A stretch of DNA of 64,000 nt from Conoideocrella luteorostrata. Its lineage: Eukaryota; Ascomycota; Sordariomycetes; Hypocreales; Clavicipitaceae. This document shows, in pieces, positions 12,901 through 64,000 of the stretch. The number at the start of each line of letters is the position of its first letter. The first letter of the stretch is position 1. The DNA lies in NCBI GenBank assembly GCA_032433595.1, contig JASWJB010000076.1, forward strand, positions 1-64,000. The letters are read 5' to 3'. The notes beneath the pieces were generated by a model. That model ran no database searches. It was not told the origin of the DNA and saw only the letters and a program-made list of their open reading frames with translations. The position numbers and the translations under genes are program-made.

Positions 12901-15149
12901 CCTTGAGCAGAGGTTCTTTCCCCGCTGTTGGAGCTATAAATGCATTGACGAAAATAATTGGTGGTTGCGGCAACTGCAGCTCAATTGACGGTTTGTTGTT
13001 GATCGGAGTGACCGAAGACCGCGAGGTATCCTTTTCATCGTATCCGTTATTGCGCAAAAACAAGTCGCTGATCGTTTCACGTCCATCGTGTCGCTCCTCA
13101 AGGAGAAGATATTCCTGGATTCGACGAAAGCAGCTTAATATTGACGTAAACAAAGGGTATGAGTTCATTATACGACGTAACGGCAGCTCTGTCAGCGCAA
13201 TGAAAGCCAGGGTCGTAAAGGTATCGGCTGCAGTCAATCCATTTTTGAACTTGGTCCAAAAGAGTGCAGCAGTGATGATGAGAATTGGCGCAAGCGTGCC
13301 ACTCAAAATTGCTGGCGAGAAGGTTAGCCGATGCTACTTTTGCGGAGAGACAAAGAACCAATGGAGATGACGGACAAACTGATTTCATCATTACCCAGAT
13401 CACCCTAAAGCTTTTCGATTGTGTCATCTCAGTTTCTCGTAGCTCTTGGACTCTTTCGCCTACTATATTCTTAAGTCCTGTCATCCTGATACTCTTGATC
13501 TGCGAAAGAACACTTGAAGTAATCGCTACTCGCCTCTCAATCTGCTTGTTCCACGATGATCGTGCTGGCATCATGGCTTTGCCGAAGAGATAAGCGCTAA
13601 CCGTGGTGACTAATTAAAGATGAGTAAAGGAGGACAACGGCCTAGAGACAGGGGAATAAAAATGGAGGTGTGAGCATACGAAGAGCTGGAATGACGATAA
13701 GAAACGTTGCCGGGCCTACTTCCGTGGATATAAAGTATGCTCCGAGGCCAAATTCGATCACACTGGCCCAGATATCATGGAACTTAGGTAGACCAATCGC
13801 CAAACCCTCAACATCTGTGCTCATTAATGTGATAGCGGCTCCGTTCCTCGCATCAAGCTGATTTAGGACAAAATTCTTCTTGAGAATTTGAGAGATCAAA
13901 ATTCCACGAAGGCGGGTGATTAAACGATAGTTCATGTGAGTGTAGCTGGCAGTGGTCATCTACGATGTATGTAAGCATTCAGTTGCCACAAGATACGATT
14001 TGTTCTTACCGCTTTTCCAAGATAGACCAGCATAGTAGCGCCAATTAGACCATTTCGAACGCTAATTGACGGATTTTCCTCTCCTAGAAACCGAACGATG
14101 CGCTGCAGCAAGAAGGGCTGGCTGAAGGTAAAGCCGATATTGAGTAGCCGTGGGAGCACGACGGCAAAGAATGGCCAAAATAATGTCAAAAAGGACGCCC
14201 TAAGTAAACAGTAAGGGGATTGTTTACCTAGGGTGATAATCATAGTTAGTGCCGGGAGTTTAACCTCAATCATCCTTTTTCACCCGTGTGAGGGCAAGAA
14301 AGGAATGGCAGCCGAGTCTCACTTACGCCTTTGCCAGATGGGCTCGAATCTTGTAGTGAGTTGTTCGGAGCTAAATTCACTTCCCAGACTGCCGAGATGG
14401 TCCACCTTTAGAATATTCCGAAAGCCGAGGAGAAATGTGGAATTCAGCCAAATAAACAGAGAACGGTTCCAAAACCCGCTGGCACTTTCTTTGCTCAGAG
14501 ACTCTTTCAGCTTAGGGTTTCTGATGTGCTCTTTCTTCGGGATCTCTTCCAGCAATACAAGGACAAGCTTAATCACAGCGGTGGCAGCGGATAAGCCGCC
14601 ATGAACTCTGAGACCAGGTCGCAATAGGTATGATCGTGATTTGACAATATCAAATAGCAATGTCAGCCCGAGGTATAGGCTGATCAAAGATGATGATCGG
14701 AGGGAGTGACGATGCTCCAAATTAATGACTGCCACAATACACATAGCTCCAACACAAGACAAGGACGTGGCGGCTAGGGAAGCAGCAGATGGATCGACAG
14801 GCAAAGTCGCGCATGTGACGAGACTTGCAATCTCGGTGCCAAGAAGTCCTCCGGTAGCGGCCTGCGAAGCGTGTTCAACCGCGTAAATAACCTCGTCTCA
14901 TCGGCGGGGAAGAAAAGGAAGAAATAAACTTACCAATTTTGCCCATAGCAGAGCGCTGCCCGTGACGTATATGGGCGATCTGAAGTAATAAAATAGGTAG
15001 AAAGGTGATGCAATAATGAGCAAGCCAGATGGGATAATAGTGAAGATAGCATGCTCAAACAACAGAGTAAAGTCAAATTGAGGCCAGAGCTGTGGTCCGA
15101 ACTCATCGTCCCCAACGGCTCCAATCGCTCTCATGACCAGATTGGACAT
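9938..15149 (-). CDS. ABC-C (MRP-type) multidrug transporter, 15 exons
   Basis: A complete ABCC exporter on the minus strand. Exons (5' to 3') are 15149-14934, 14861-14327, 14227-14010, 13959-13680, 13609-13376, 13311-12557, 12487-12325, 12270-11953, 11895-11787, 11732-11661, 11596-11546, 11483-11419, 11343-10728, 10665-10570 and 10499-9938. They join in frame to 1429 aa. The N-terminus (DEFGPQLWPQFDFTLLFEHA) is typical of fungal ABCC proteins. NBD1 has GRTGSGKS, NLSGGQRQR and a Walker B VLDNVFSSLD, with Asn after the Walker Asp. NBD2 has GRTGSGKSS, FSHGQRQLL, LLVDEATSAVD and an intact H-loop His (VSHRPEAI). The 13375 donor (GTCCGT) is unusual and is the weakest junction. The intron pattern is shared with the transporter at the right edge of the window, so the two are paralogues. 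No neighbour reveals the substrate. Confidence 0.88.
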
Positions 15150-15947
15150 GATGACAAGTGCAACGCTCTGGTCGTCATATCATTTGATTGCGCAGGTTGG
15201 AGGCTTTGAGTTATGTACCAAGATCAAGCGGCTCCCTGGCGGCGGTGATGGCGGTTGGTGTGGGGGTGCATTAATTCTCTTAATTCTCCGGCTAGGCTGC
15301 GGAAAGGGCTTGTATGTGGTTGGCTCCACGCAGGCCAAGCCGCTCGCCGCCCAGCTATTTTAGGCAGGTCCTATGAGCCGTGTCTGGGGCGGCCTGGGAC
15401 CTGTTGGCTCAAAGCACCCCGGACGGAAGATGGCCGAGATAAGGGCAAACATCTTCCGTCCGGGGGCAATGGAAGATCTGCACTGGAGCACGTATTGAGT
15501 ACAGAGTACAAGTCATGGATGTTGGCACGGTAGCACTGCTGGGCTTTTGGTAGGTTGGGTTGGACTGGTGATTGGGAGTCTGGAGAGCCGAAGCCCATGC
15601 GGACTGCCACGAAATATCCTCGTTTTGTTAGAGCTATACTCATTGTCCTCCCATAACGTCTACTCGCCTACACTATGCCCTCAATGGCGCAAGACCAGTT
15701 GTCATGGAAGGAAACAGATACGCTCAATTGTCGTCTTGTTACTGTAAAAAAGCCACTGCGTTACCACATTCTGACGCTGGTCTAACTCTTGAATCGTGCT
15801 TAACAATGCTGTGTAACTCTCCGCGCGCACAAGATACAATCCACAGACGCCATTTCCTAGCTCAATCCCCTGGCCCATAAACAATGTTTCCTTCCTCAAT
15901 TGAAGCGTGTCTGCGGCCAAGCATGCCGCAAACAGTGCAGGTTTGTG
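15150..15947. other. Intergenic stretch, no gene seen
   Basis: Upstream region of the minus-strand ABC transporter and downstream of a possible small secreted-protein gene. A minus-strand open frame at 15702-15920 lies just beyond the stop of the 15948-16200 gene and could be an extra exon of it, but I found no convincing splice pair. Confidence 0.35.
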
Positions 15948-16200
15948 CTAGCCCTCCGCCGACAGTCCCGTGAGGTCTCCAACACCGTCGTGCTTCTGTC
16001 TTGTGCTGAGAGGGAACTTCAATGAAGCCGGGTCACGCCTCCATTGCTGAGATAGAGCAGTATCGGAGACTATGAATTGGGTGGTTAGCAGAAAGGAGGA
16101 GGCGGAACTGGTCAAGATGAGCCTCACCGGGGTGTGACAACACGAATGATGCACTTAGCAGGATGGATGTCACCAATCTGAAGACATTGGGGAGCAGCAT
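15948..16200 (-). CDS. Possible small secreted protein, two exons
   Basis: An ATG at 16200 begins a hydrophobic leader (MLLPNVFRLVTSILLSASFV) followed by a plausible signal-peptidase region. Splicing 16200-16128 to 16069-15948 (donor GTGAGG, acceptor CATAG, 58-bp intron) gives 64 aa. The mature part is hydrophilic and has no cysteines or recognisable domain. I do not recognise the family. It lies about 0.8 kb upstream of the ABC transporter, in the same orientation. It could equally be a chance open frame with a hydrophobic start; transcript evidence would decide. Confidence 0.35.
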
Positions 16201-19098
16201 TGTGTTGTCCTAGCGTTGCAATTTATCAGAAGCAAAGTCCAATATGAAGGTTTGACTACAAATCGAGGGGAAACAGCTCATGCGTCGCGACGTGGGAGAA
16301 TGGGGAGTATTATAGTTACGGCTGCCACCAAGATCGGACCTTTCTTTTCCACATCCTTTCCCACTATTCCGTACAATTTCCCGCCCCGCCGTCGCCGTCC
16401 GGACCTAGGCTCGAGGCGACGCGCATTTCCGGCCCTCATGCAATGGTTCTTTCCGACCCCGACTGAGCGTCGTTTTACTCTATCCCTGACCTATATTTCA
16501 GTGACCAACCCCGCCCGTCACGAAAAATGGCGCAGCCAGAGACGTCTTTGCATGTTCAGTTGTGACCCTTGCAGGGCGATTCGAAGACAAGAACAAAGTA
16601 CGGAGTACCCAGGTGCCAGTTCGCCGAAGACAACCCTAGACCTATCAACAGTCCCCAGTCAGATACTTGACTTTCGGCTGGCCCGCCGCCCATCGAACAA
16701 CTACCAACACTGTGGGTCCTTAGTTGAGTGGGTTCAACGGGGGTAGTTGTGATAACAAAAAGTCCACCGACATACACTAATGCTGCCGCGCCGTGGCTCT
16801 TTTGTCGCGATTCCAGCAAAGTGGATTGAGTTATTTATTGTACTGCATGTCGCCGATTCTGGCCCACCAAGCCTCCCGCGTGTACAGGGTCACCGCTTGC
16901 GACCCCGATTCTAGTCCGTCGCGGGGGAAAGTGCAAGCGGGGTAAACAGAACGGCGACCGTTTTAAAGGGAACGGGACAGAACTTCACTAAATGTCGTTG
17001 TACTGAGTTTCTACTTGTAGGACAATGAGGTGAATGGAAGAATCGAAGCGAGGCTCCGCAGGTTAGGCTGGCGGGATCACCGCCAATTATTTCTATGTGT
17101 GTTTGCCAGAGCGGGTTGCATTCACAGCAGCAATGCCCTCTCGTGAATGGCCACAAGATGATTCATTCGAAGAAATAAAATAAAATATAAAGAAAATCGC
17201 CGACATAAAGTTCTCTCTCACAAAAAGTGCGTGGAGAAAGAGGATCAGTCCTACATCGCCAAAGCTCACGCCATGCTTGTTCAGGCTCCCAGAGTCGGCG
17301 GTGCCCGGTATTCGGTTGTGGAGTTGAACTCGTGCCGAAAGTTGTCCTTCTCTCGGACTTCGACATGCTCCGTATCAGTGTTTCTGGGCTGTTAGTCGAA
17401 CGTCAAAGCAGGATAAAGAATGGCGACATGGATTAGCTTGGGGGCGGAAATGGGGAGATGGGCCGTTCACAGTACGGGGACGCTTCTTTGGAACACTCTA
17501 GTCGTGAACGAGTTTGCTATTGTGGAAGAGTGCTCTCAGGACGAGTATCGTCGTGCAAACGAGAGTAAGAGAAGTCAACAGACGCCGCCGCTTTCGCATG
17601 TTCAAGGGTTCAAATGACATTTTGACCCTCACCTGCCGCCCCCCTTTCCCGTCTCTAGTTGTTCTTGGAGTGTTCCAAAGCTGCTACATTATCGTCCGTA
17701 GCCGAGAACACTCCAACAAGAAGAGGCCTGCTTTTTGTCCCTTTATGGATCTTATTACGTTTTTAATGCACTCACATGCCTCTATTATTTTGGCAGACAT
17801 GTTGCTTGTACCGCGTGTAGCCGACGGTCTTGTGCCTTGAGAACATTCGCTCTGCCACCACAGACATTAGGGGAATGCAGAATACTTCAATATTTATATC
17901 TCTGAGGGGGGGGGGGAGAATTTTCTCGCTGGTTCAGTTTAACCTACTACTATTAGGCCACTAGGTGCCTAACTTGGTTTGCGAGTCCCGCCAAGTCAAG
18001 TCAAATCCTACAAGTAGAAAGCTTCAAATCATTTACAAATATAAAGCGGTCAAATCTATCTGTCACCCAGCCCGTTTATGCCGTACACTCTCCGTCTTCA
18101 GCAATTCTTAGTTTACAGGATGCCTCTGCGAGAATGAAAAAAGGAGGTACGGTATGGTTTGATGAGTGCGAGAACCACGCTATTGCTAAGCTATTATACA
18201 CACGCAAAGAAATTTAAGTAATACACTACCATATCCAGCTACCCTATGTCAAGTGTTACAATATACAACAATTACTGCGCATTAGAGCAGGTTCTCTTTG
18301 TTTTAACACCTTAAGATAGTCTGTCATACGACTCGGAAAAGTAATAAGAGCTTTAGGAGCAAATTCTACAGGGTAACCTTTTAGCTCAAAAAACCAACGT
18401 GAAGTCCCCAAATATTTAATGAAATTTACATAGAGCTCCTCGTTATCCATGCGAGTGATTCTAACGGCCGCCACTGTCTCTCGTTAACCTTATTTACTGG
18501 CACAGCTTCTATCTTCCCAGCTCTGCACGGGTTACCTGCGCCTGTGTGGGCGGCCTGCATTGCCGTCGAATTCGGCACTTCAAGGTTGAAAGTCAGGCCA
18601 ATGTCTTTGTTGCAATCTTGGGCTGACGAATAAGTCTAGACGTAGTATATCCAGGATGCGCCATATTCCAAGGTTGGCGACGGTTCTGTATGGACCGCAC
18701 AGTTGGACAATTTTAGCCGCTGCACATGACATAGCCATAAGAAGCAGCCATCTTTTCCATGAATATTTTTGGAGAATACAATCCAAGTCCGAACGAAATC
18801 ATTCCCGTCCCCAAGGCTCAATGGACCTGGCCAGCAGTAAAGCCACTCTTGCATGTCTCAGTTGTATGCATCTGAGCTAGATGGACTTCATTGAGGCAGC
18901 AATAGCCGCGAACCGGGTTTCCCTTAGAGCGGGACACTAGAAACGTCTGGATCTTTCCCTCGCCGTGACGTCTTCTGAGATCTTTCGCTTTGGAAATCGC
19001 AGCGGATGGGTAGCTCTCTTAGGCTCTGGGTCACCCAAGGCTCCTCGTACGTTTCTCGACGTCTTGTCTCTTTGCTATCATCAATCTATTACGTTATT
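16201..19098. other. Intergenic region, no gene seen
   Basis: About 2.9 kb with only short overlapping open frames. A minus-strand frame at 18256-18474 (72 aa) matches no family I know; a short block in it resembles sequence near 37790. The 9-mer TACGGAGTA occurs at 16599 and a run of ten or more G at about 17907. Probably decayed repeat sequence. Confidence 0.35.
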
Positions 19099-41433: not shown

Positions 41434-43380
41434 ATGGATCGATACCAATATCGTCCGCTCGCGTCCCAATCTCGGGAGATAAGGCTCATCACGCTAGGCC
41501 CTGGTGGTTTGCCGGATGATTTGCACATCGAGCTACGCCATGAGACCCTTTCAACTAACAAACCGCCACCATATGATTCGTTGTCATATGCCTGGGGCAC
41601 AGAAAAAGAACTGGTGCAGATACAAAATGGCCCTTCTTCCACAAAATCACTCGTCATCCCTCAGAATCTCGCTACAGCCTTGAAATATGTGCGATATGAA
41701 GACCGGCCGAGGGTTCTATGGATTGATGCTATTTGCATTGACCAAAGCAACACCCAGGAACGGAGCCAACAGGTAGCAATAATGGGGGACATCTATGGGA
41801 TGGCCCGCCAAGTTGTTGTCTGGATTGGCACCGAAAGTGACGACAGCACGTTCGCTTTGGAATTATTGGAGCATATTGGATCAAAAGTAGAAGTGGACTG
41901 GTCGACAATCACTATGAGACCCGCCGCGACTGATGCGAGCGAACCAGAATGGGCTGATAAAAATCAACGTCTTCCGTACCAGGAAAGAGATCTCGTTGCA
42001 TTGAACTCTCTCTTTCACCGGACGTGGTTCGAAAGACTCTGGACACGACAAGAAGTTCGCTTGGCAAATACTGACGCCATTGTCATGTGCGGTACCAAAA
42101 TGATGAGTTGGAAGGCACTTCGCAACTCTATATTTGCCATCCGACTGAAACCTGGGAAGGTATTTCCTTCAGAGAAGACGACCGAACAATTTTACGACCG
42201 TATTGAATTGATATATGCAATAATTGACGAAAGGCCAAGGCCTCTTCAGTCTATGCTAGCCCGAGCACGGATTGCGGAATGTAGCGATCCCAGAGATAGA
42301 GTATACGCATTGCTCAATATGCTCCATCCGAATGAAAAGGCACTTGGGATTGTCCCGGATCACTCTAAGACGACCGAAGAACTTTATCAGCACGTAGTCC
42401 TCAGGCATATCGAGCAGTATAAGAGTTTGCATATTCTGTCAGCTTGCCAACTTGGATCGAGAAATATGCCAAGTTGGGTTCCAGATTGGTCCACCCGGAG
42501 CGTCCTTGATCCCTTCTGGTATTGTGGTGAAGGTGATAAGCTACTTGATCGCTCTGATGCATCGTATCTGGGAGCAGGGGTTCTCCAAGCATCGGGATTG
42601 TCTGTAGCGACCATCAATGAAGTTCGAGACTTGAACTTTCCCCAACAGCTTCTTCATGTTGCGGAGCATATAATAAAACTTTTACCCGATAACATCATCG
42701 ACGGAAAATACAGGCACGAGAACGGTGAAAGACTCTTGGAAGCTTACTGCCGAATTTTCTGCTGCAATGAGTTCGGAGAGAAATGGTCACCTACTAGATC
42801 GTATACCCCAGACACCCAGAAAAGCATGGAATTTTTTGCTTCTATGATAAATATGGATAAGGCCACCATGGAAACTACGGTGGAGTTGGATGCGGCCGGG
42901 ATATATCTCAGTTATGTTTATGGGAACTGCCGAGGCAGATGTCTCTTTTCAACCAAAGAAGGCTACGTTGGACTGGCACCAAAATCAGCAAAGCCTGGTG
43001 ATGAAGTTTGTTTTCTCTTCGGTCGCGATTCGCCGATGGTACTCCGTCTCGTTAAAGAGAAATCTGGACTAAAGCATCAAGTCGTAGGGGAATGTTATGC
43101 TCATGGTCTTATGGCGGGTGAAGCTGTTCTTGGAGATCTGCCTAACGACATGGTGCAAGTCTTCCAGAAAGATGAGGCATCCAGGCAAAATGCACCAGCT
43201 TACCTGAATAGGCAAACCGGGTTAATCCAAAGAGAAGACCCACGGCTGGAATCATTCCCGACGTACTTGGCGGATAGTAGCTACGTCGAGGAACTCTCAG
43301 TGGAGGAACTACTCGAGAAGCTTAGACTAAACGTCCCTGGAAAACCTACGATCGATGTTAAGAAGTTTTATCTTATATGA
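41434..43380 (+). CDS. HET-domain (heterokaryon incompatibility) protein
   Basis: An intronless 648-aa protein. Residues about 46-200 carry the HET signature: PPYDSLSYAWG, IPQNLATALKYVR, LWIDAICIDQSN, ERSQQVAIMGDIYGMARQVVVWIG, and later FHRTWFERLWTRQEV. The C-terminal half (ARIAECSDPRDRVYALL, MPSWVPDWS) is the conserved extension of this family. HET domains are TIR-like effectors that can cause regulated cell death when incompatible strains fuse; the role here is inferred from family. Most fungal genomes carry dozens of such genes, so a specific allorecognition role is not shown. No partner gene such as an STAND protein is adjacent; the nearest NLR lies 18 kb away. Confidence 0.9.
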   Translation: MDRYQYRPLASQSREIRLITLGPGGLPDDLHIELRHETLSTNKPPPYDSLSYAWGTEKELVQIQNGPSSTKSLVIPQNLATALKYVRYEDRPRVLWIDAICIDQSNTQERSQQVAIMGDIYGMARQVVVWIGTESDDSTFALELLEHIGSKVEVDWSTITMRPAATDASEPEWADKNQRLPYQERDLVALNSLFHRTWFERLWTRQEVRLANTDAIVMCGTKMMSWKALRNSIFAIRLKPGKVFPSEKTTEQFYDRIELIYAIIDERPRPLQSMLARARIAECSDPRDRVYALLNMLHPNEKALGIVPDHSKTTEELYQHVVLRHIEQYKSLHILSACQLGSRNMPSWVPDWSTRSVLDPFWYCGEGDKLLDRSDASYLGAGVLQASGLSVATINEVRDLNFPQQLLHVAEHIIKLLPDNIIDGKYRHENGERLLEAYCRIFCCNEFGEKWSPTRSYTPDTQKSMEFFASMINMDKATMETTVELDAAGIYLSYVYGNCRGRCLFSTKEGYVGLAPKSAKPGDEVCFLFGRDSPMVLRLVKEKSGLKHQVVGECYAHGLMAGEAVLGDLPNDMVQVFQKDEASRQNAPAYLNRQTGLIQREDPRLESFPTYLADSSYVEELSVEELLEKLRLNVPGKPTIDVKKFYLI

Positions 43381-50967: not shown

Positions 50968-53900
50968 ATGAGGTCGAGGTCTCATGTGAGCTATTCGACG
51001 CAGGTGGGACTTCTGGGGTCGCGCTAATAATACGATAGGTTGTCGATTTGGGTAGTAGCAACGACACTAGAGAGGGACCGGCTAGGCATTCGTCTAGCGA
51101 AGAGACAGCCTCTATTTCCTCCTTGCTGGCTAATAATCCCTATGGCCCTATCCTCCTAGCCGCTGGCCCCACGACCGTCTACATGATGGTGTCTTTAATC
51201 TTGTTCGCACTTCTCCGTCGAAGAATACCAAGAGTATATTCACCAAGGAGAATGTCAGGTATTCTGCTTGCAAGGTATATCCTCCAACACTCCCGTTCTG
51301 GGAAAAAAAAAAACACAACCACATAGCCTAACCCAGTGCAGAGCGCGGAATCCAACACTACCAGCTGGCTGGATTACTTGGATCAAACCTTTGCTCAAAA
51401 CTCCAAGCTCTTGTGTGCTTGCGGATTCCTCGCTGGATGGCTTTCTCTTTCTTCGTTATCTGAAAGTTCTGTGCATCATCTGCCTCGCCGGAATCTTCTT
51501 GGTGTGGCCGGTCCTTCTTCCCATCCACATGACGGGTCCTTCTTTACCGCGCCGTGATGCTCTAACGATTCAGGGACTGGACAGCTCGATCAAACTGTAT
51601 GCCCACGTCGCCATACTCTGGGTGTACACGGGTGAGTTATAAATCTCCATCGGGACAGCCTGTCTGATTGACATACAGGCTTTATCTTGTTCATGTTGTG
51701 GCGAGAAAGCCTCTACTACATAAACATAAGGAATGCCTATCTCATATCCTCTCAATACATCAAACACAAGTCATCTAAAACTATCCTCATTACCCCTGTT
51801 CCAACCCCTGATCTGGATGAAGGATTGTTGCGGAAGCTGTTTGGAGATTCCGTTGTTAGATGTTGGATACCGTGGACCGTAACACGGCTGAAAAGGCTTG
51901 TAAGAGAAAGAGAAAAGACGGCACAAAGATTGGCGGAAGCCGAAATGACGCTCACCAAAACCGTCAATGGGCCACGAACAGCCTCTCTACAAATCAGCAT
52001 GCCACGTTGGGGCCGGATGACGAGGCAAGAAAGTCCCAAAGTGCAAGGCGTCAAAGAAGGGCGTATGCGAGAAAAGAGTCGCCAGCCACCAAGGCTTACC
52101 CCGACTCAATCTGACGTTCGAATTAGCCATAGCATGGTAGCGGTATCAAGCGACGGGACGCATAACAGTGCTCACGATCACGGCTCGGATTTTGAGAATG
52201 TACAGACATCCCCGGAATCACAGAATATGCCAGCTACTTCGAGGCCGGAACACCCTCGTGTGGGCGGAGTTTGCCGCAGCGTTGACACGATCAAGTGGGC
52301 TCGATCGCATCTGAGGCTTCTCAACGAACAAATTGATGCATTGCGCCAACAACATCATGACGACCAAGGGAAGAAGATCAATGCGGTTTTCATCGAGTTC
52401 GACTCTTATGCCAGTGCACAAGCAGCTTACCAAACATCTATCCAGTACCCTCCGTTCCAATTGTCTGAGCGAGTGATTGGAGTACGGCCTGGTGAGGTTG
52501 TCTGGGGTTCTCTCGGAATTAAATGGTGGCAGCGACTCGTACGACAGTTTCTCGTTCTGATTGTCATCTCCGCATGCGTCATTCTCTGGTGGTTCCCAGC
52601 TACCATAGCAGACGCAATGACAACGCCGTCAACTGTCAAGCACTACATGCCCAGTGTCGCACGACTTCCTCCGATAGCCACGAACATCATATCTGGTTTG
52701 GGACGGTCGCTCCTTATGGTCGTATTGCTGGAGATTATCCCTATTTTCATGAGAGCGTGTGCCAAGTTCTCGGGGGCACCAACCCTCTCCGCCATCGAGA
52801 TGCATGTCCAAAGTAGATACTTTGTCTTCCAAATCCTGCAAGTCTTCCTGGGCCCAATACTAGGGCTGAACATCTACCACGCGGCGGGCTACGAATCCAT
52901 CCTGCTATATTTGTTGCCCAACGCGTCCAGTTATTACATGACGTTCATACTCGTCCGGTGCCTTTCAACTGGCGCTTGGGAACTGACACAGTTGTGGCGG
53001 CTTTTCCGACACAAAAGTAGAGCAACGCGAGCTGGAACCCAGCAAACTGTTTATAGGAGGTTGCACGATCTCAATGTTGTCCACTGGGGCAATGTTTACC
53101 CCGCCATTGCAAACATCGGAGTAATCGGTCAGTGCTTGGAAATACCTCTTTTCACACGCTCAAGACCCATATTGACTGACGACGTGAAGCTATTAGCTAC
53201 TGCTGCATTGCACCCCTCATCCTCGCATTCGCGGTGACGGGGCTCGGCTTCCTACATTTCGTTTACAAATATAACCTGATTTACGTGTACGACTCTAATA
53301 CCCTGGATACACGTGGGCTATTCTACCCTCGAGCCCTGAGGCACATTATAATAGGGCCGTACTTGGCGCAGTTCTATTTTATTTGCCGATTTGTCATGGT
53401 CCGTGCATGGGGCCAATTAGCTCTCACGGGTTTGCTGTCCCTCTTTACGGTATTTCTGCACAACTCGGTCAGAAGCACTATGAATCCTTTTGATGGTCTT
53501 TTTAGGACGCCAGGTCACGATGTCGAGCGTGCATCAACCCAGCAGAATGAACCCGAAAGAGATGAGCACCCCCACCATGAAGTCGGCCGCCGCCATCGGT
53601 TTTCCGCAACGGAACACCTGAGTAACGTGGTTCCTAAATATGTCCCACGCGATGCCACACCGGTGATCGCAAACGAAGCCTGTCTAAGCCGCCGCGACCA
53701 GCGGCAAAAGACACATCGTATATGTGGGAAATGGCCCCGGTCACTAACTCTCGAGAATCCCCAGTCCCTGCATCACATAGTTTCCCACGTATCTGCAGAT
53801 ATTAAGTTCCCTACTCAGTACGAACATCAGCGCTACTTGCCTCCAGAGGTCTGGCTTCCTGAACCAAAGTTATGGATTCCCCGGGACGAGACTCTCATGA

Positions 53901-54052
53901 TGAGTCAAGGTCTTGCAGTTACAGAAGCGATGCTCCCAACATCGGACAATGGAATCTGGTTCGAAGAAAACGGTCGAGTGGAACTCGATTTAGAGCTTGC
54001 TCCGTTTAAGGATGACCTTCTCCTTTATCATCACTTGCGTCTTATTTTGTAG
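50968..54052 (+). CDS. CSC1/OSCA/TMEM63-family (DUF221) putative mechanosensitive channel
   Basis: Five exons join in frame to 950 aa: 50968-50985, 51039-51274, 51342-51631, 51679-53131 and 53197-54052. The architecture is that of fungal CSC1-like/RSN1 proteins: TM0 (PILLAAGPTTVYMMVSLILFALL), a late-exocytosis N-terminal block (RYLKVLCIICLAGIFLVWPV), a long cytosolic loop (about residues 200-440, coiled and Ser-rich; SYASAQAAYQ, VIWG-like VVWGSLGIKWW), then the multi-helix 7TM core (GLGRSLLMVVLLEIIPIFM, APLILAFAVTGLGFLHFVYK). Family members are osmo- or mechanosensitive cation channels or lipid scramblases in plasma or internal membranes. The tiny first exon is a best guess; an ATG at 50821 is in the same frame. 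Nearness to the UstYa genes may be chance. Confidence 0.82.
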
Positions 54053-54687: not shown

Positions 54688-54785
54688 TTATGTACAGCCC
54701 CAGCAGAGTCCATCGGTGTGCTGCCCATTGTGCTTGATCCAGTTGCAGCAGTTCCTCTTGACCTTGTAGCTCTCGGCCTCCTCAG
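54688..54785 (-). pseudogene. Third, out-of-frame core repeat of the peptide precursor
   Basis: Directly downstream of the precursor's stop, on the same strand, a third repeat unit is present in a different reading frame: SYKVKRNCCNWIKHNGQHTD followed by GLCWGCT and a stop. It keeps the KVKR site and the C-N-W-I-K core but has Cys for Tyr and KH for KR. A short indel between units 2 and 3 puts it out of frame, so it is not made from the upstream ATG unless an unseen splice or frameshift joins it. Confidence 0.6.
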
Positions 54786-55027
54786 ATACAACCATCAGTG
54801 TCCTGCCCGTTGCGCTTAATCCAGTTGTAGCATTGTCTCTTGACCTTGTAGCCCTCGCCAGCTCCGTCCTCGGGAAGTGCGCAGACACCGTTGGTGTGAT
54901 TCTCGTTGCGCTTAATCCAGTTGTAGCATTGTCTGGTTACGAGCAGCCCATCGCTGGCCACGATGGGGGTCGAGGGGGCTGCGATGGCGCCGATAGCAAG
55001 TAGGGCGATGATGTTGAGGAGTTGCAT
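54782..55027 (-). CDS. Putative RiPP precursor: signal peptide plus two CYNWI core repeats
   Basis: The ATG at 55027 encodes 81 aa. Residues 1-16 are a signal peptide (MQLLNIIALLAIGAIA), then a short leader (APSTPIVASDGLLVTR). Two near-identical repeats follow: QCYNWIKRN at 33-41 and 65-73. The second is preceded by YKVKR (60-64), and both cores are followed by KR. The dibasic sites are Kex2-type, so kexin would be expected to release a short peptide containing C-Y-N-W-I, with the acidic spacer (residues 41-60) discarded. This layout (secretory signal, repeated cores, KR sites) is that of ustiloxin, asperipin and epichloecyclin precursors, and UstYa-like genes lie next door. The core is not one I know. 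Alternatives are a small secreted effector or a mating pheromone; the core does not resemble hypocrealean alpha-pheromones. The stop at 54782 is set by an indel before a third repeat. Confidence 0.72.
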   Translation of the reverse strand: MQLLNIIALLAIGAIAAPSTPIVASDGLLVTRQCYNWIKRNENHTNGVCALPEDGAGEGYKVKRQCYNWIKRNGQDTDGCI

Positions 55028-55606
55028 GGTGTTTAAGTGAAGAAGGATGGTTTTTTATGGGTGGGAAATAAAAGCAATGTTTAAATGCGGGAGAAGTGCT
55101 TGAGTGACGTGCTTCGAGTGACAGATCTGGCTGTTTCGTCTTATATATTATAACATGAACCAGGATAGAGACAGCGATTTCTCAACAACGTTCTTACATG
55201 CACCAAAGAAAATTTCTTACCGGGAAGCGCCGTCTTGCTGCGTCACGCCCAGACTACGTCACGCCCAGAATAGACGGCACGCTTAGAAGTAGCGACACTC
55301 CTACAGATGGCCGACACGATGCGGACAACCCGTTCAGGAAAAGTCCGGCGCGATCAACGCCGACGGCACGCCTGAAATAGACGCCGAAAGCATCCAGCGA
55401 CACGCGGAAGTTGACAAATGGACAGTTGGTTCTTCTGTTCAGCGTGTCGCGCTCTTTCTTGGCTCCAAATTCGTCCGCAATGGCCAGCATCTCTCTGTGA
55501 AACGTTCCTGACAAGTCGCGTCATTTCTACAGACCGGTTCACAATAGTAAATCATTCAAGACGTTATTCATTTCTATATTAAATGTAATCGGAAGATAAA
55601 GGTCTA
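55028..55606. other. Upstream region of the precursor gene
   Basis: Promoter region of the minus-strand precursor and 3' flank of the UstYa-like gene. Two open frames on opposite strands (55198-55380 and 55254-55514) overlap and lack domains. Short repeats of CGTCACGCCCAGA occur at 55240-55270. Confidence 0.4.
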
Positions 55607-56719
55607 TTAATCGTACTTTTCAGGATTCTTGAGCTCCACATTCTTATGGTTCCCGCCAGCATGGAATCCCTTGACCTGTCTACCCTCCGCCCAGGAATAT
55701 ATAGCTTCAAAATTACGGCACTGGTGCTCCGTGGAATGGTGCGCAATAAGACCATGGATCTCTGGCACATATTCGAATGTGATGGGAGTAACATCACCGT
55801 GGCACATGATTGACTGGCGGAGATAGTCGATGCAGTGATCTGTATCAGAAAACGTTGATCAGTAAGCCGCTGAGCGCGTGGGTACGAAGCAGGAGTAGAC
55901 CAGTCATTACCTGTGTGGTTTCTTCGCTGGGGAAAATCATCCAGCACCCCGTTGCCCGCAATTGTGTCGTCTAGCTGCCAGAACTGATCGCGGATCCATT
56001 TCTGTTGTCTGTTAGTGACTTGAAAACCACGTTGCAGGCGAAATGGTCTCACCAAGCAGTGAAACTGGTGGAACATTTCTAATTCGACCATGTAGGAGCC
56101 TGCAGGACCGTTTGTAGTGCGTGCTGATCCGTTGGTAAGTTTAGCATTTTCCTCACCGAAGATGTTAACGACGCCAACTGCGTTGAGGGTGAATGCGCCG
56201 GTTAGTCAGTCTGCGTAAATACCCGTTCGTCAACAATTTCACTCACCGCCGAGCAGGCGATTCCATGCGGCGTCATTATGTTCATTGGGGCGGCCTTCGT
56301 AGATTGTGTTCGTGTCGTGCCGTGGATCATGGAACCCAGCTCGCTCAAAACGCTTGTACTCGTACTTGATCGGAATATCGTTGAAAATGTCTGCAGAGGG
56401 ACGGCCTATGGTAAGCATGGGCGCAGTCTCAACGGAGATGCTCGGGACATAATTTACTTTCTGTGCCAAATCTGCAACTTGTATAACCGGCATGTCTCCA
56501 GTATTCTATCAAGAAGAAAAGATAGGAAACGGCAAAAATGGATATTGGAATTATCCACCATTGCCAGGTCGTGCAGCGGCGAGAGCTCCTCTTGGGAACA
56601 CGCTGTCTGCGGTCTTTTTCGTGAGACGACAGCAGACGCTCGCAGTCAGAACAGTCTTCCTCCGAAGACTCTTCATTTTGGGTGTCGACAGATGCCCTAA
56701 GCTGCCATCTCATAAACAT
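55607..56719 (-). CDS. UstYa-like (DUF3328) oxidase, copy A
   Basis: Five exons join in frame to 289 aa: 56719-56458, 56405-56247, 56177-56053, 56001-55911 and 55839-55607. An acidic cytosolic N-terminus is followed by one membrane helix (about 54-73, WWIIPISIFAVSYLFFLIEYW) and a lumenal domain. The two family motifs are present: HQFHC (177-181) and HCIDYLRQSIMC (214-225). In ustiloxin, phomopsin, cyclochlorotine and asperipin pathways such proteins carry out oxidative cyclisation or related tailoring of the peptide, with the His/Cys motifs presumed to bind metal. Its start is 344 bp from the divergent copy B, so the two probably share a promoter. It is on the same strand as the precursor and 0.6 kb upstream of it. 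Confidence 0.88.
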
Positions 56720-57064
56720 GTTGGCGTCTTGCGATGGTACGGTGGTGTCTGCAGAAGAAGACGCTACACCTAGATGCTAGAATTAATACGTAAACTTCAA
56801 AGAACTAATGAAACGATGTAAAAATCTCAAGGAAAAAACGGAATAAATTGTGTGGTCCAATCTGTTTCCTGTTTGTTGGGACGAAGAGGTCGGCGTCACG
56901 CTGACGCTCCCGCCTCGTTCAGCGTACCGCGCGACAACGATCCAGGCCAATACGTGCGTGGCAAACCTGGACCTAACGCCAACAAAAGAATTTTCCGTAA
57001 GTGGTTCTCGGTATAATTCTGATCTTGGTTCTATTCTATAAAATTTACAGCACATATTCAAATC
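56720..57064. promoter_or_regulatory. Divergent promoter between UstYa-like copies A and B
   Basis: 345 bp separate the two start codons on opposite strands. No TATA box or known binding site stands out. A shared bidirectional promoter would couple expression of the two genes. Confidence 0.45.
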
Positions 57065-58026
57065 ATGCGTTGGCTACAATTCAACAAGATGCGATACTCG
57101 TGGCTCAATGACAAGGCAGGCCACGACTTTGCCAGAGACGCCCGCGGAGTTGAAAACGGTGATGACAATTCTGAAGGCCAAATTGACTACAACAATCACA
57201 GCGACTCGAAACAGTCGCTGTATGTGTCTCTGGCTCTCAATGGCAGCCTAGTGCTACTCGTGGCGATTCTGTGGTGGCGGGATCTGCGTCTTCACTCGAG
57301 GCATACCGATCTACTGCCTACTCCGGTTCCCGAATGTAATTTTTTTTTTGTTCAGTTACAGGAAGCTGCAGCGTCGTCAAGCTAACTTTTGAGGTTAGTT
57401 CCCACGGAAATTAGAACTTTCCAACTGGATCCCTTATTTCTGTCGCTGCCGTCCGAAGAGAGCAACACTGCATGGGAGTCGCTACCAGGTCGTAAGTCTT
57501 TTGTGTCGTGCTTGTTTCAACCGTGAATGTTTGAAGTCAACTAACAGGCCATGACTCTTAGCCAACGGTATGGGCTTCATTAACATCGACCCCAAGTTAA
57601 ACCTCAAGCTACCCGACAAGAAGGCTGGCCTGTCCGTCTTCCATCAGCTACATTGCCTTGTGAGTCCCTTCGCCGCGTAGCTATCAGTGTACCTGCGCGT
57701 ATCATGGCACCCCTCTAATTTTGTCCCTTCAGGGAGCGCTGCGCAACTTTATGTGGGAGCTCATGTACGACCGCGTTGACCGCGAAGCTCTACTAGCAAC
57801 TTGGCCAGCCAATGTCTCGTCCCCAACATACGACCAGGCAATAAACGGAATGTGGCATTATGCCCATTGCTTTGACTACTTGAGGCAGGGGATTCAATGC
57901 TCGGGCGATACTTCGCTTGAGTTTGTGCACGGCGGGACAGGAAAGGCCGTTGTAGATGGGCTGGCGTATCCGCATGTATGCAAGAACTGGGATGCACTGT
58001 GGACATACGCCAAGTTGCATGGCTAG
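57065..58026 (+). CDS. UstYa-like (DUF3328) oxidase, copy B
   Basis: Four exons join in frame to 251 aa: 57065-57335, 57399-57491, 57562-57659 and 57733-58026. A hydrophilic N-terminus precedes one membrane helix (about 51-70, LYVSLALNGSLVLLVAILWW). The lumenal domain has HQLHC (149-153) and HCFDYLRQGIQC (199-210), and ends VCKNWDALWTYAKLHG, typical of UstYa proteins. Copies A and B have different exon structures and low similarity outside the motifs, so they are not a recent duplication; ustiloxin-type clusters commonly carry two dissimilar copies. The likely site of action is the ER or Golgi lumen on the secreted precursor. Confidence 0.9.
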
Positions 58027-58144
58027 AGCAAGGCTGATGATTGTTGGTATTTGTAAGAAGCTATAACTGTACCTGTCGCTGAATTTGCCTCGAGGCACGC
58101 GAGCTAAAGCTCGAGTCCGTAACAATACATTATAATCGCCGCCC
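58027..58144. other. 3' flank of UstYa-like copy B
   Basis: Short non-coding stretch ending at the GTTGCTGTTC repeat. No terminator is recognised. Confidence 0.3.
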
Positions 58145-58400
58145 TTCATTGTTGCTGTTCGTTGTTGCTATGTATTGTTGCTATTTGTTGTTACTACTTG
58201 TTGTTGCTATTTATTATTGCTGTTCATTGCTGCTGTTCATTGTTGCTGTTCATTGTTGCTGTTCATTGTTGCTGTTCATGTTGCTGTTTGTTTTGCTGTT
58301 TGTTGTGCTGTTTGTTGTGCTGTTTGTTGTGTTCATGTTGCTGTTCATGTTGCTGTTTGTTGTGCTGTTTGTTGTGTTCATTATTGTCGATCATTTTTGC
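58145..58400. repeat. GTTGCTGTTCATT-type short tandem repeats
   Basis: Units of GTTGCT, GTTCATT and GTTTGTTGTGCT repeat over about 250 bp. Three frames stay open (Leu/Val/Cys-rich runs) only because the repeat lacks stop codons; these are not genes. Confidence 0.85.
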
Positions 58401-58856
58401 CGTTCGTTGCTGTTCAACATCTACTGCCGTAACTGACATTGTCGGTTAATGTTCTCCAGCAGAGTACAGCCGGCATCCAATGTGTCCGTATACTCCGCAA
58501 CTGATAAAGCATCACCTTTGGTGGTATGCGAGGCCTTCAGCCAGGAAAAAGTGCGGCGCGACACGCTCAATTGGAGAAGTGCAATAATTTGTCTGCCATC
58601 CAAGTGCTGAAAAAGAAGAGACGGCCCCATTCATTCATTGTAGACGAACCCCCCCTCACCTCTCATACACTGGTCTGATTGCCGCTCCATCGTGTTGTGA
58701 AGTCACAGCGTGCCGCTCGGCGTGCCGCCCGGCTGAGCACCGCACTTCTTTCCCATAGCTGTTGATAAATTTCCCTAATAAATTCAAAATGCAACGAGAA
58801 ATTGTAAACCCAACGTTAATCAATCACACGTGCTTCACAGAAGCACATCCTCAAAA
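58401..58856. other. Upstream region of UstYa-like copy C
   Basis: No gene is seen. The sequence before the ATG at 58857 is CA/A-rich (CATCCTCAAAAATG), a good fungal start context. Confidence 0.35.
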
Positions 58857-59603
58857 ATGAGCTTGCCAAACTCTACGTCAGGTAGCCGCTACGTGTCCAT
58901 CTCAAACGACGACGACGACGGCGACGACATCCACGACAAGCCGTTTCTTGCATCAGAAAAGCATCCTGCCGAACGCGATCCTTTCTACCCACGAACTAGA
59001 AGACCATACTCCTTTACAATGATGCAACTCCTCGCCCTTATCTTGACCTCTGCCATTATCGGCCTAACTCTCGGCCTGACATCCTATCTCATCAACACAA
59101 CGACCACACCCAGTGTCTCTGAGCCCGTGCGAGTCAAAACTATGGTCAAGCCTTGCGGCACTACGTCCGCCGAAGCTCGAAAACGCGGATGCCACTTCGA
59201 CCCCATCTCCTTCTGCTGGCTGCCTACGGCATGCTACGACAAGCAGCTGACCAGGGACTTTGACGTTGGCTTAGAGTGGTACCTGGACGCCAACCGCACG
59301 CAACCCGTCAGCCACGAGCAGATCATGACGGGAGAGTACACAGGTCTGTACGTCAACTGGGAGTACCATGTTTCGCACTGCACGGCCATGTGGAAGAAGA
59401 TGCACCGCGCGATTATGAGCGGCCTGGGCAACGCGGCAATCGATTCGTACATTGGGATGTATGCGCACACGGCGCACTGCGAGAAGATGCTTTTGAAGGG
59501 CAGGAATATTGCAGGGGATGTCATCAACACACGAATCAGAGTGAAGTTTCCAGATTGCGGCATGGACTATACCTCAAGGCGGAGGGAGCAGTTGCACGGT
59601 TAA
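58857..59603 (+). CDS. UstYa-like protein, copy C (divergent, two HxxHC motifs)
   Basis: An intronless 248-aa protein. An acidic cytosolic N-terminus precedes one membrane helix (about 56-79, MQLLALILTSAIIGLTLGLTS). The lumenal part has a Cys-rich segment (PCGTTSAEARKRGCHFD, CWLPTACYD) and then HVSHC (171-175) and HTAHC (204-208). This matches the divergent branch of the UstYa/DUF3328 superfamily in which the second HC motif is also HxxHC. The real start is the ATG at 58857; the frame upstream has no ATG. The protein probably works in the secretory pathway with copies A and B, possibly on the same peptide. It is convergent with the ABC transporter, 140 bp away. Confidence 0.75.
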   Translation: MSLPNSTSGSRYVSISNDDDDGDDIHDKPFLASEKHPAERDPFYPRTRRPYSFTMMQLLALILTSAIIGLTLGLTSYLINTTTTPSVSEPVRVKTMVKPCGTTSAEARKRGCHFDPISFCWLPTACYDKQLTRDFDVGLEWYLDANRTQPVSHEQIMTGEYTGLYVNWEYHVSHCTAMWKKMHRAIMSGLGNAAIDSYIGMYAHTAHCEKMLLKGRNIAGDVINTRIRVKFPDCGMDYTSRRREQLHG

Positions 59604-59618
59604 GCCGGTATGGAACCG

Positions 59619-59646
59619 GGGGGACCGGGGGGGGGGGGGGGGGGGG
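59619..59646. repeat. Poly-G tract
   Basis: An uninterrupted run of 20 G (59627-59646), preceded by CGGGGGGACC, lies just after copy C's stop. It could form a G-quadruplex in the 3' region between two convergent genes. The exact length may be unreliable in assemblies. Confidence 0.7.
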
Positions 59647-59743
59647 TTAGTTAGGCAGCCAGCATAAATAGTGTAATACATTAAAGGTTGAAACGGAAGC
59701 TATTTGATGTTGACGTTGCCAGCAGTGGACGACGGAATGAAAA

Positions 59744-62700
59744 TCACAGTGATGTAGTCTCTGGTGGCGGGGCTGCACCCTGGTGATTACCTGCGGCGTA
59801 TAACTCGGCAAACTGGCTACGCTTTGCTAGTAATTTGGCTGGTTCATCATATTCCAAGAGGGATCCCTCTGCGATAACAGCTACTCTGTCAAAAGAATGA
59901 ATATGGCTCAGGTGATGCATAATGGAAAGCACTGTGCATCCCTTAAAGTCAGTGTTGATAATGTCGTGAGCAGTCTTCTCGGTGTTCGCGTCGACGCTGC
60001 TAGTTGTTAGCATCCTTTTGGGAAATGTCCGACTTTTTTGACTGCTTACTTGCTCATGGCTTCATCCAAGAATAAAACTTTGCTCTTGCGAACAAGAGCA
60101 CGAGCCAGGCAGAAGAGCTGCTTCTGTCCCGCTGACCATTCTTTGTCGTCCATGACCGCTTCTAGTCCACCCTTTTCTTGGACCACAGACCATAGCTCAA
60201 CACGCTCGAGTGCTTTGATGATAACATCGTCAGAGCTAGTGGAAAATGGATCCAGGTTAAGCCGAATGGTGCCAGGAAACAGGAATGCATCTTGGGACAC
60301 AACGTTGATTCGCTGACGAAGCTGAGCTGGGTCAAGGGCGGAAACATCTACTCCATCAATGGTGATTGCCCCGTCTGGCTTGGTGTCAATCATTTGAAGT
60401 ATACTCAGAATGATAGAGCTCTTTCCGCCTCCTGTGCGCCCGCAGATAGCGACATGCTGGCCTGGTTCGACGGACAGCGATATACTGTTCAGGGCAGGCT
60501 CCGTGTCGGCGCTGGAAGGATTGTCCGTCAGCAAAGCCATGCAAGGAGTTGTAGCGACTAATGGCTTACCCGTAAGAAGCTGTCAAGTTCTCTATCTCCA
60601 ATTTGCCAGCCTCGGGCCACCGCGGTGAAATATCTACGACACTTGTCTCGGCCACTTCCGACTCGGTGTCTGCAATATACCTCTTCACTCTCGCCGCGGC
60701 GCCAATACTAGTTTCTAGATGGGTCCATGATTTAATCAATCGGACGAGCACCTCACTCAAGCCGATCACCATGACTAAACCAACACCAACGCTTCCGGCA
60801 GAGAATTGATCGGCTAGGGTAATGGTGATTGTGACAAGCGCCGCTGCTAGCACAGCAGTCATGAGCTCCAAGACAAACCCAAGACAGTACTGAATGCAGC
60901 TGAGCATGTATTCTGGCCTTTGGGAGGCGTCAATGAGACGCTGGCATCGCTCTTGGTACTGTCGCTCCCAACCAAAGGCGCGGATAGTGACAAGCCCCTC
61001 TGAAACCGCAGTGAATGACGTATACAACGGCGCTTTGGCTTCGATGCTGAGGTGTCTGAGCTGGCGGGATGTTTGCAGGTAAAACCTCTGGAGGAAGAAG
61101 AGCGCAATTCCCATGAAGGGGATGGCGATTCCAAGATATTTCGAAAAGATAGCAATGATGATGACCTTGGCAGCGCAAGTAAATACGGCTAGTAAGTGTT
61201 TTGAGTCAGAATATTCCAGCATATTTTACAAGTGTGGAGCTTACTAGAAGAGTAATTGATCATTGTAGACGGCAGTTCCATGTCTATCAGCTCCATGTCC
61301 TGGCCGAATCTATTGCAAATAAATGAGTATTCATTCACCGATAAACTTACGGAGTTCCACTTACCGATTCAAGATTTCTCCGCTGTCAGTGGCAGAGAAG
61401 AACCGCAGGGGCGCTCTGCAACACATGCATAATTAGCAACGTAGATAGTCGCGTGACTAGGACACATACCGCATCGTAGTCTCCAGTAAATCAGCATGGA
61501 GCTTAATTGCCGACTTTGAGATGATGGAGATGAGGGCCGTCCTGGCCACTGTTAACACTGTAGTCTAGCTGTCCTTCATTTCAGCCGTCTACTTACCAAG
61601 CAGCCAAGCAAGCACCTGCTGTTGCAAGAAAACCAAGCGCAGCGTAGACGCCCAAATACATGCCAACTTTATCATTTGGTTGTTTCTCATTGGCCTCAGA
61701 CCACCATTTAATCCAAATCGCTACCGCAGTGGTTAGTTGATATGCTGCGAGACGGAACATGGGAATGACTAACAAGAAAACTCGGTGGTGACAGTCCAAA
61801 TTAACATGAAAAGGACGTTGATGCCGATCAACAAGCAACCAGCGGCGGAGAAATAGTACTTGTAAACAGTGATATCTCCATTCTTGCGTCGCAAGTCTTC
61901 AAGCTCCTTGCCAGAGTTCATCGGGGCGTCTTCAAGCTCGTCTGGTATGCCTACCATATGCGAGGCAGTAAATTTGTCCGCTGTAAACTCTGGTGTTTCT
62001 CGGGTCACAAATTTTGATGGTTTGCTGTCACCGGGCAGTCCGAGAGAGCCAATGTATCCACTGCTCTTGGAAAGCTCAGGATACGATCCAGACTCAGATA
62101 TCTGACCGTGTTGGATCACGGCAATGTTGTCGGCAAGGGAAATGAAGGCCACTTTGTACGGAGTAGTTTGTTAGCATTTTAGAGCAGGAAACCTGCACAC
62201 ATTTAAAGAAGACTCACGGTTATTGGAAACCAAAATAACGGTTTGCCGGTCCTGTCGTAAAAGGCCGTTGGTCCCAAGGAGCCGCTCTCTAACTGCTGAC
62301 GAAGTGTGCGCATCCAGGCTGCTGAATACATCGTCAAGAAGGATCGTTTTGTGCCGAGAATACACGGCTCGAGCCAGGGCCTAGTCATGCCGTTCATATT
62401 AGCGTCTAACAGCGACCGACGCTTTATCTCGACACATCTACTTACAATACGATGCTTCTGGCCGCCGCTAAGTTTTGCGCCGCCGCCACCAATATTGGTC
62501 CTGTCTCCCTTCCCAGCTTGAGCAAGGTCATCCTCAAGCCCACAGGCCCATATTACCTTGTTGTACCATTTGACATCGTATTCAGAGACGCCCAGGATGC
62601 TCTCTCGGATCGTGCCGTTTTCAAGCCAAGGTTTTTGGCCACAATACGCAACAGTACCGCCGATTGGACTACACTGAGACGCTGTTGATGCAGCCATTTC

Positions 62701-64000
62701 ACCAAGTAAGGCAGTTAATAATGCCGACTTGCCGCTGGCTGTTGGGCCGGTAATGACGTTTATGGTGCCGCTCAAGACGGGCAGATGAGCATTCGTGAGA
62801 ACGTTGGTACCTTTATCTTTCCACGCAAAGCTCACACCACCAAGATAGTCCCTAAAATCTACAGAACCGTCCTTTTCACGGAAATTGCCAGCTCCCTTCT
62901 CGGGGTCCGAGGCTTGGTCGTCGTCAGTGGCTGAGCACTCGGCCTGAGCAGAATCAGAGTCGACAGACGGCTTCTCAGCCTGCGCTGCCGTGTCTGCGTA
63001 GTTACAGTACTCTTGGATGCGTCCAAAACATCCCGTTGTTTGCAAAAAGTTTGGCAGGGTTTGGATAAAGGAAATGACAGGGTTGACGAGCAGGCCGATG
63101 AGTGCGACAGCGGTGAACGCCTGCGCCGTAAGAAGAGTGCCTTCTTTCCAATAGAGAGAAACAATAACGTAGACAGCAAATGTAACGACGGGAGCAAGGT
63201 TGATTGGGGTTAATGCTGCAAACACGGTAATTAGTTACTGGCCTTGAAGAAAGACATGCACCAAAGAGGTCTTACACAGTAGGATGGTAGCAACAATAAT
63301 TTTGCGGAACCCTTCCGATGTCTGAATCTCATCGAGACGAATTGCGGAAATAATGTCGGACAGCACCGTTGGAAGGCCGAGAAGCTTGACGCTCTTCATG
63401 TCTCCAAGCACAGCGGTTGTGACGCGAAGTCGTTCTTGGACTTTCTCAACCCATAGTCGCTGCGACGTGCCGGCAGATGCAGACACTTTGGATGTAATGG
63501 CAACAAAGACTAAAAAAGCGAAAAATGACTATTAGCTATCACGGCTGAGAATTGCTTGGGAATTAGACAGCTTCATACTCAGAACCAGCGCAATGGGAGC
63601 AAGGCATGCGAGGGATAATTGGCGCTCGAGAAGCCAAGCAGCCACGGCAACATCCAACAGGGAGCCCCAGAGCTCATTGAACATCTGCATTCCGCTGACA
63701 ATACGTTCAACGTCGGTGCCCATGAGCGTCACGCCAGTGATGTCTCCCATGTCGACGGGTCGGGTGTTGACGTTGTGTTGAAACACGAGGGCAATGAGGC
63801 TACCTCGAAGTCTCAAAGAGAAGCGAAGATTCTGGTATTTGTACGCGGAATTGGACATCTGCGTGTTTCATAAAGTCAGTCGCACGATATTCTACGGCGA
63901 CAATGTGCAATTTAATATAGCCACTTACGGCCATGCCTAGATACACGAGAACCCAGGCACCAATAAGACCACGCCCATAGTCAGCGTCGCGCTCGCTAGC
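59744..64000 (-). CDS. ABC-C (MRP-type) transporter, 5' end outside window
   Basis: Thirteen exons are visible: 59744-59996, 60050-60511, 60570-61188, 61245-61309, 61365-61415, 61470-61541, 61597-61720, 61774-62151, 62218-62380, 62446-63215, 63276-63509, 63579-63858 and 63929-64000. They join in frame to 1180 C-terminal residues; TMD0 and part of TMD1 are beyond base 64000. NBD1 has GPTASGKS, KLSGGQKHR and LLDDVFSSLD. NBD2 has GRTGGGKSS, the variant signature WSAGQKQ, Walker B VLFLDEAMSNVD and H-loop MHHLSHI. Sizes of several internal exons (280, 234, 163, 72, 51, 65) equal those of the transporter at 9938-15149, showing common descent. Position beside the UstYa-like genes suggests it may export the peptide product or protect the producer; that is inference. 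Confidence 0.88.

Follow-up and report, generated by a model that had tools for sequence, protein, structure and literature searches.

When a small open reading frame (ORF) for a secreted peptide lies next to genes encoding UstYa-type proteins, the question arises whether they form one biosynthetic cluster for a ribosomally synthesized and post-translationally modified peptide (RiPP), and which part of the encoded peptide ends up in the product. This question is raised by a locus of the fungus Conoideocrella luteorostrata, located in the window analysed here, i.e., the whole stretch of 64,000 nucleotides that makes up positions 1-64000 of contig C76 (147,361 bases) in a 46.4-Mb genome. An 81-residue precursor with two copies of the motif CYNWI is accompanied by two genes of the PF11807 (DUF3328) family, UstYa1 and UstYa2, by a gene for a UstYa-like protein (gene 3), by an ABC-C type exporter and, past the window edge, by a Zn2Cys6 regulator (Table 1). 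These genes are assigned with high confidence to one compact UstYa-type RiPP cluster. It is very probably a cluster that has no tyrosinase and whose core family, present in one or two copies, is new, because PF11807 genes are present, gene 3 carries the corresponding motifs, the linkage is kept in Metarhizium acridum and the gene set recurs in the genome. An initial annotation had proposed an uncharacterised cluster of this type, and both the M. acridum homologue and the recurring gene set lend support to that proposal.

The N-terminus of the precursor, MQLLNIIALLAIGAIAAP, is of signal type according to a screen of hydropathy and cleavage motif (not SignalP), which places the protein among secreted precursors. 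A pro region leads to two units composed of QCYNWI, KR and a tail; the tails are NENHTNGVC and NGQDTDGC(I), the spacer between the units ends in KVKR, and an exact block of 31 nt is common to both units, 96 nt apart. The CYNWI cores had initially been described as repeated and bounded by KR, and two units are indeed found in the ORF on the minus strand, but only copy 2 has KR on both sides, copy 1 being preceded by TR. Past the stop codon and in a different frame there is a degenerate third copy, which is either a relic or an out-of-frame copy. An exact degenerate pattern for CYNWIKR finds, in the whole genome, solely the two copies of the precursor itself; since this uniqueness is joined by 71% identity, over 99% of the ORF, to the M. 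acridum protein J3459_017415 (P0002), the ORF is regarded as more than a chance frame. The homologue, retrieved by a search of 5.8 billion proteins, likewise has two cores and stops after the second unit, at the same place as the window ORF, and the two-unit ORF is therefore read as the working form.

Three further homologues, P0003, P0004 and P0005, have a single core. The E-values of P0003 (0.09) and P0005 (0.06) are those of the search that first showed each of them, and the value of 3.5e-8 for P0004 is not independent, since the query contained its close look-alike P0003; that all three are homologues is argued from the CYNWIKR block common to them, from their signal-type start and from a Cys at the C-terminus. 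For gene 3, too, the best homologue is a protein of M. acridum (J3459_017418, 81% identity), and the precursor lies near gene 3 in that species, as given by their near-consecutive locus tags and by longest contigs of equal size (334,199 bases). Thus, a homologue with repeated cores near a UstYa-type gene, on whose existence in related species the initial annotation had staked its proposal, has been found. The two intervening tags, 017416 and 017417, fit as candidates for UstYa1 and UstYa2. The single-core precursor P0005 and the gene 3 homologue P0034 probably share one contig, since the longest contig is 10,203 bases for each, and would provide a further case of this linkage; for P0003 and P0004, no gene 3 homologue on an equally sized longest contig was seen.

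Once spliced, UstYa1 and UstYa2 match PF11807 almost over their full length, UstYa1 spanning nearly the entire profile, and these genes directly adjoin the precursor, with about 580 bases separating the stop codon of UstYa1 from the start codon of the precursor. UstYa1 is interrupted by four GT-AG introns of 51-71 nt. The arrangement HxxHC(x)nHxxHC is present in UstYa1, UstYa2 and gene 3, and all three reading frames are open from start to stop. Accordingly, the three UstYa-like genes with HxxHC motifs that had been proposed at this locus stand, with two motifs each, except that position 55607, given for the first of them, is the 3' end of UstYa1, whose start is at 56719. The divergent promoter that had been seen between UstYa1 and UstYa2 is confirmed by the distance between their start codons. 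A low-complexity stretch of TTGCTG type lies 3' of UstYa2 (about 58140-58430), and a long run of G lies 3' of gene 3 (59620-59648).

Gene 3 represents a second HxxHC family, which occurs in many Pezizomycotina. Its two motifs are 33 residues apart; among 99 homologous entries, including the query, two HxxHC motifs are found in 92, one in six and none in one, and the spacing is 32 or 33 in 75 of the 92. An AlphaFold2 model (mean pLDDT, the predicted local distance difference test, 80.6) consists of a low-confidence N-terminus, a helix at residues 55-81, read by eye as a predicted transmembrane helix, and a helical domain in which the two motifs sit on separate helices, 168-187 and 202-214. The modelled architecture, with one predicted transmembrane helix, a helical domain and two HxxHC motifs, would correspond to the layout of UstYa. 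In Penicilliopsis zonata, one gene model (P0098) combines a domain of gene 3 type with one of PF11807, as the result of either a real fusion or the merging of two neighbouring genes; this protein is outside the 54 aligned members of the family and matches PF11807 via its second domain.

The association of gene 3 with UstYa genes is not confined to this locus. A genome-wide search with PF11807 at an E-value of 0.01 yielded 60 matches, or 29 loci if those less than 10 kb apart are merged. Apart from the window locus, gene 3 is matched at seven sites. Six of them (on contigs C54, C300, C341, C612, C532 and C363) have a PF11807 match no more than 1.7 kb away, and the seventh is on C1, a contig with no PF11807 match. 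As 1.4% of the genome lies within 10 kb of PF11807 matches, the binomial probability of at least six of seven loci falling there is 5e-11. Four of these other loci were aligned; three have both HxxHC motifs, whereas the C612 copy is without an intact pair. Precursor-like sequences, all of them PF11807-adjacent, were found at four of the seven other loci. For instance, the C532 locus (stretch 7001-17000, minus strand from 2816) contains, beside UstYa and gene-3-type genes, a signal-bearing ORF in which NNQAGWG is repeated nine times, with a dibasic site behind every repeat but the last; there, the core and dibasic site precede the Cys-free tail ENSVDGT. On C54 (stretch 110001-120000, minus strand from 6985), a single-core precursor-like ORF ending in GWSII-KR-DTESTDAI, also without Cys, has a gene-3-type gene on one side and several UstYa matches in a row on the other. 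The C612 locus (minus strand from 3118) has about ten HQSYLKE(R) repeats, with units VEPDRHQSYLKER and what looks like an intron behind the signal peptide, beside UstYa matches and a gene-3-type protein, and at the C363 locus (about 4210-4073, minus strand) UstYa and gene-3-type genes adjoin AEYPVTWPN repeats whose frames are broken. In a 70-kb control sequence (window positions 1-54000, L002 from 64001, and L003), the signal-type screen B gave no match. C54 also holds, near 25.8 kb (minus strand from 2816), an ustiloxin-type precursor with EDYFIG repeats (VEDYFIGADKRDKT); that locus (22-26 kb) includes tyrosinase matches at 21.9-22.5 kb as well as a UstYa match.

The promoters of the precursor gene and gene 3 have the block GCGCGACACGCTSAAYWGRAGAA in common, in the same orientation relative to both genes. 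With up to two mismatches allowed, the block occurs at two places only in the genome, namely these promoters. The local alignment score of the two promoters was reached in 11 of 300 shuffles, a figure that refers to the best of three pairs tested, the others having been reached in 73 and 68 of 300. A moderate case can thus be made that the two genes may be co-regulated through this block. On the other side of gene 3, the ABC-C exporter that had been placed between 59744 and the window edge is borne out by its domain matches, and continues beyond that edge. The left neighbour of the cluster (51687-54052, plus strand) is a calcium-dependent channel gene with RSN1_7TM, PHM7_cyt and PHM7_ext domains, which we take to be CSC1/OSCA, and a HET-domain (heterokaryon incompatibility) gene lies at 41434-43380 (plus strand).

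Table 1. Features of the cluster and their positions (window coordinates unless marked as contig).
Feature	Position	Strand	Basis or remarks
Third degenerate repeat, KVKR-NCCNWIKHN..C	54691-54780	minus	Different frame, past precursor stop, outside ORF
Precursor ORF (81 aa): two QCYNWI-KR-tail units behind signal-type N-terminus and pro region	55027-54782	minus	ORF, translation, homology
Promoter block of precursor gene, common to gene 3	55430-55452	minus	
UstYa1, 289 aa, HQFHC/HTDHC; five exons: 56719-56458, 56405-56247, 56177-56053, 56001-55911, 55839-55607	56719-55607	minus	PF11807, 3.4e-47
Divergent promoter region, UstYa1/UstYa2	56720-57064	.	345 bases between start codons
UstYa2, 251 aa, HQLHC/HYAHC; four exons: 57065-57335, 57399-57491, 57562-57659, 57733-58026	57065-58026	plus	PF11807, 3.1e-26
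Promoter block of gene 3, common to precursor gene	58556-58578	plus	
Gene 3, UstYa-like, 248 aa, single exon, HVSHC/HTAHC	58857-59603	plus	Motifs, model, homologues
ABC-C type exporter, several ORFs/exons	59744-64000, on to about 64.7 kb of contig	minus	ABC_tran, 1e-25; ABC_membrane, 9.7e-12
Zn2Cys6 regulator beside exporter	65.3-67.5 kb of contig		Past window edge

From these elements, a route for processing, chemistry, export and regulation can be inferred. The precursor would enter the endoplasmic reticulum via its signal peptide, which would be removed, and Kex2 in the Golgi would act on KVKR, on the weaker TR and probably also on the KR that follows each CYNWI, so that [Q/N]CYNWI cores are set free. 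The tail behind this KR, of the form N..[T][D/N]G..C, could serve as a follower for recognition, or stay attached to the core via its Cys as a short partner chain. UstYa1, UstYa2 and gene 3, as putative single-pass membrane proteins with copper sites formed by HxxHC(x)nHxxHC, would oxidise the core, and a macrocycle would most likely be closed via its Tyr or Trp side chain. The product would then be exported by the ABC-C protein, and the adjoining Zn2Cys6 regulator would control the genes. Judged from the sequence, CYNWI is the likely core, but only provisionally so, since conservation extends to the tail behind KR and to its Cys.

Several results weigh against assigning the locus to a UstYa-type RiPP cluster. 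The precursor ORF contains only two cores and thus falls outside the definition of Kex2-processed repeat precursors by Umemura 2020, which, as stated in a survey of 1461 strains (PMC7329392), calls for at least three tandem repeats of at least eight residues between Kex2 sites; the repeat screen A missed it, and gave one chance match in the 70-kb control. The third, out-of-frame copy has KH where KR would be expected. Gene 3 has no Pfam match above cut-off, scoring 11.7 bits against PF11807 where the curated cut-off is 25, and none of the 54 aligned family members match PF11807 at an E-value of 0.01; an hhalign comparison of the family with eight UstYa sequences of the genome, out of the 60 PF11807 matches, was weak (E-value 0.0096, probability 4%), yet still aligned both motifs. 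The paralogous precursors came from several screens picked in succession, none of them preset, which also returned matches that are not precursors. Contig C76 has no match to an S41 peptidase and none of the 16 tyrosinase (PF00264) matches listed for the genome; the tyrosinase search was able to detect such a gene, since the ustiloxin-type locus on C54 gave matches. Finally, CYNWIKR and the tail Cys are kept in all seven in-frame copies of the five precursors, which is odd for a tail that is discarded.

This last observation favours a product of another extent, namely a longer, disulfide-closed Cys-to-Cys peptide, [Q/N]CYNWIKR-x(7-13)-C, in which the inner KR stays uncut and on which the UstYa proteins act or which they only decorate. 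Four of the five precursors end exactly at the tail Cys (the window precursor has one residue more), the cut site upstream of the core varies among copies (KR, TR, SR, AR) with the inner KR invariant, and the third, out-of-frame copy retains the tail despite its KH. However, KR is a strong Kex2 site, and the C532 and C54 paralogues have a Trp-containing core, a dibasic site and then a Cys-free tail; from the likeness of the tails, judged by eye, KR plus an acidic tail looks like a common layout. The longer peptide is possible, at well below an even chance, and concerns only the boundary of the core, so that a UstYa-type RiPP cluster would still be compatible with it.

That the locus is a decaying relic, with the out-of-frame repeat marking a loss of function, is unlikely: a degenerate copy does lie 3' of the ORF, and a comparable broken repeat is found at the paralogous locus on C363, but UstYa1, UstYa2 and gene 3 remain intact frames and the M. 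acridum precursor stops at the same place after two cores. It is very unlikely that the small ORF encodes an unmodified secreted peptide, be it a signal, a pheromone or an effector, with the adjoining UstYa genes serving another substrate. The survey of 1461 strains does report 7878 Kex2-processed repeat precursors of which 22% have DUF3328 genes nearby, leaving about 78% without such neighbours, but its account also has pheromone-type precursors almost never adjoining UstYa genes (PMC7329392). The linkage of precursor and gene 3 kept in M. acridum, and probably also between P0005 and P0034, argues against an unmodified peptide as well, as does, to a moderate degree, the promoter block.

The preferred reading, a UstYa-type RiPP cluster, thus joins a known arrangement to a new core: UstYa (DUF3328) genes beside Kex2-processed precursors are known, and the CYNWI core family is very probably new. 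A second survey describes ustiloxin-type precursors in, among others, Metarhizium robertsii (PMC6339444), the account of a Metarhizium brunneum genome lists fungal-RiPP-like clusters, one of which matches phomopsin at 14% (PMC11457142), and a 2025 study of lichens reports UstYa RiPP clusters without repeated cores, for which it suggests that the core is single or that the precursor is encoded elsewhere than in the cluster (PMC12048977). That the core would match no known product had been stated at the outset, and CYNWIKR was indeed not found in a search of a library of papers without their supplements, so that an unlabelled supplementary entry is possible; the three papers listed for CYNWI were, by title and abstract, off-topic. 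Since the window precursor and its single-core homologues fall below the three-repeat threshold, genome surveys based on repeats can overlook such precursors. The CYNWI locus represents a family whose precursors, be it with two cores or with one, have a common core block, gene 3 could serve as a marker to reveal such clusters without reliance on repeats, and a new core chemistry is offered for testing in an apparent insect-pathogen lineage. More tentatively, and at slightly less than an even chance, there may be a low-copy branch of fungal UstYa RiPPs that has been overlooked. Its precursors would have one or two cores that contain Trp, then a Kex2 site, then a short, acidic follower; UstYa proteins would act on them together with the second, sub-cut-off HxxHC oxidase family, that of gene 3, which would be a marker of such clusters throughout Pezizomycotina, and a Cys/Tyr/Trp cross-linked peptide without known counterpart would be the product.

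When compared with known systems, the locus resembles those of the dikaritins, ustiloxin and phomopsin, in the signal peptide, the Kex2-flanked cores and the PF11807 genes near the precursor. It differs from them in that their core has the form YxI, whereas CYNWI reads YxxI, in having two cores in the ORF, and in that none of the listed tyrosinase matches falls on its contig. Asperipin-2a, whose core is FYYTGY, likewise depends on a UstYa-type cyclase. In contrast to the three UstYa-like genes found here, one UstYa gene is named for asperipin-2a in the 1461-strain survey, where a tyrosinase requirement is named only for ustiloxins and phomopsins (PMC7329392); a reductase gene is implied for asperipin-2a by the lichen study (PMC12048977). 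The DUF3328 hydroxylase CctR, reported as a dimeric binuclear copper enzyme, is described with a single transmembrane helix, HxxHC(x)nHxxHC and a helical lumenal domain, as in the model of gene 3, but acts on a non-ribosomal peptide (PMC12435403), and gene 3 falls below the PF11807 cut-off. The epichloecyclins (GigA), finally, also derive from a Kex2-processed repeat precursor; theirs is reviewed as a multicore precursor with imperfect repeats, giving cyclic nonapeptides for which a Tyr-Ile linkage is reported (PMC9233826).

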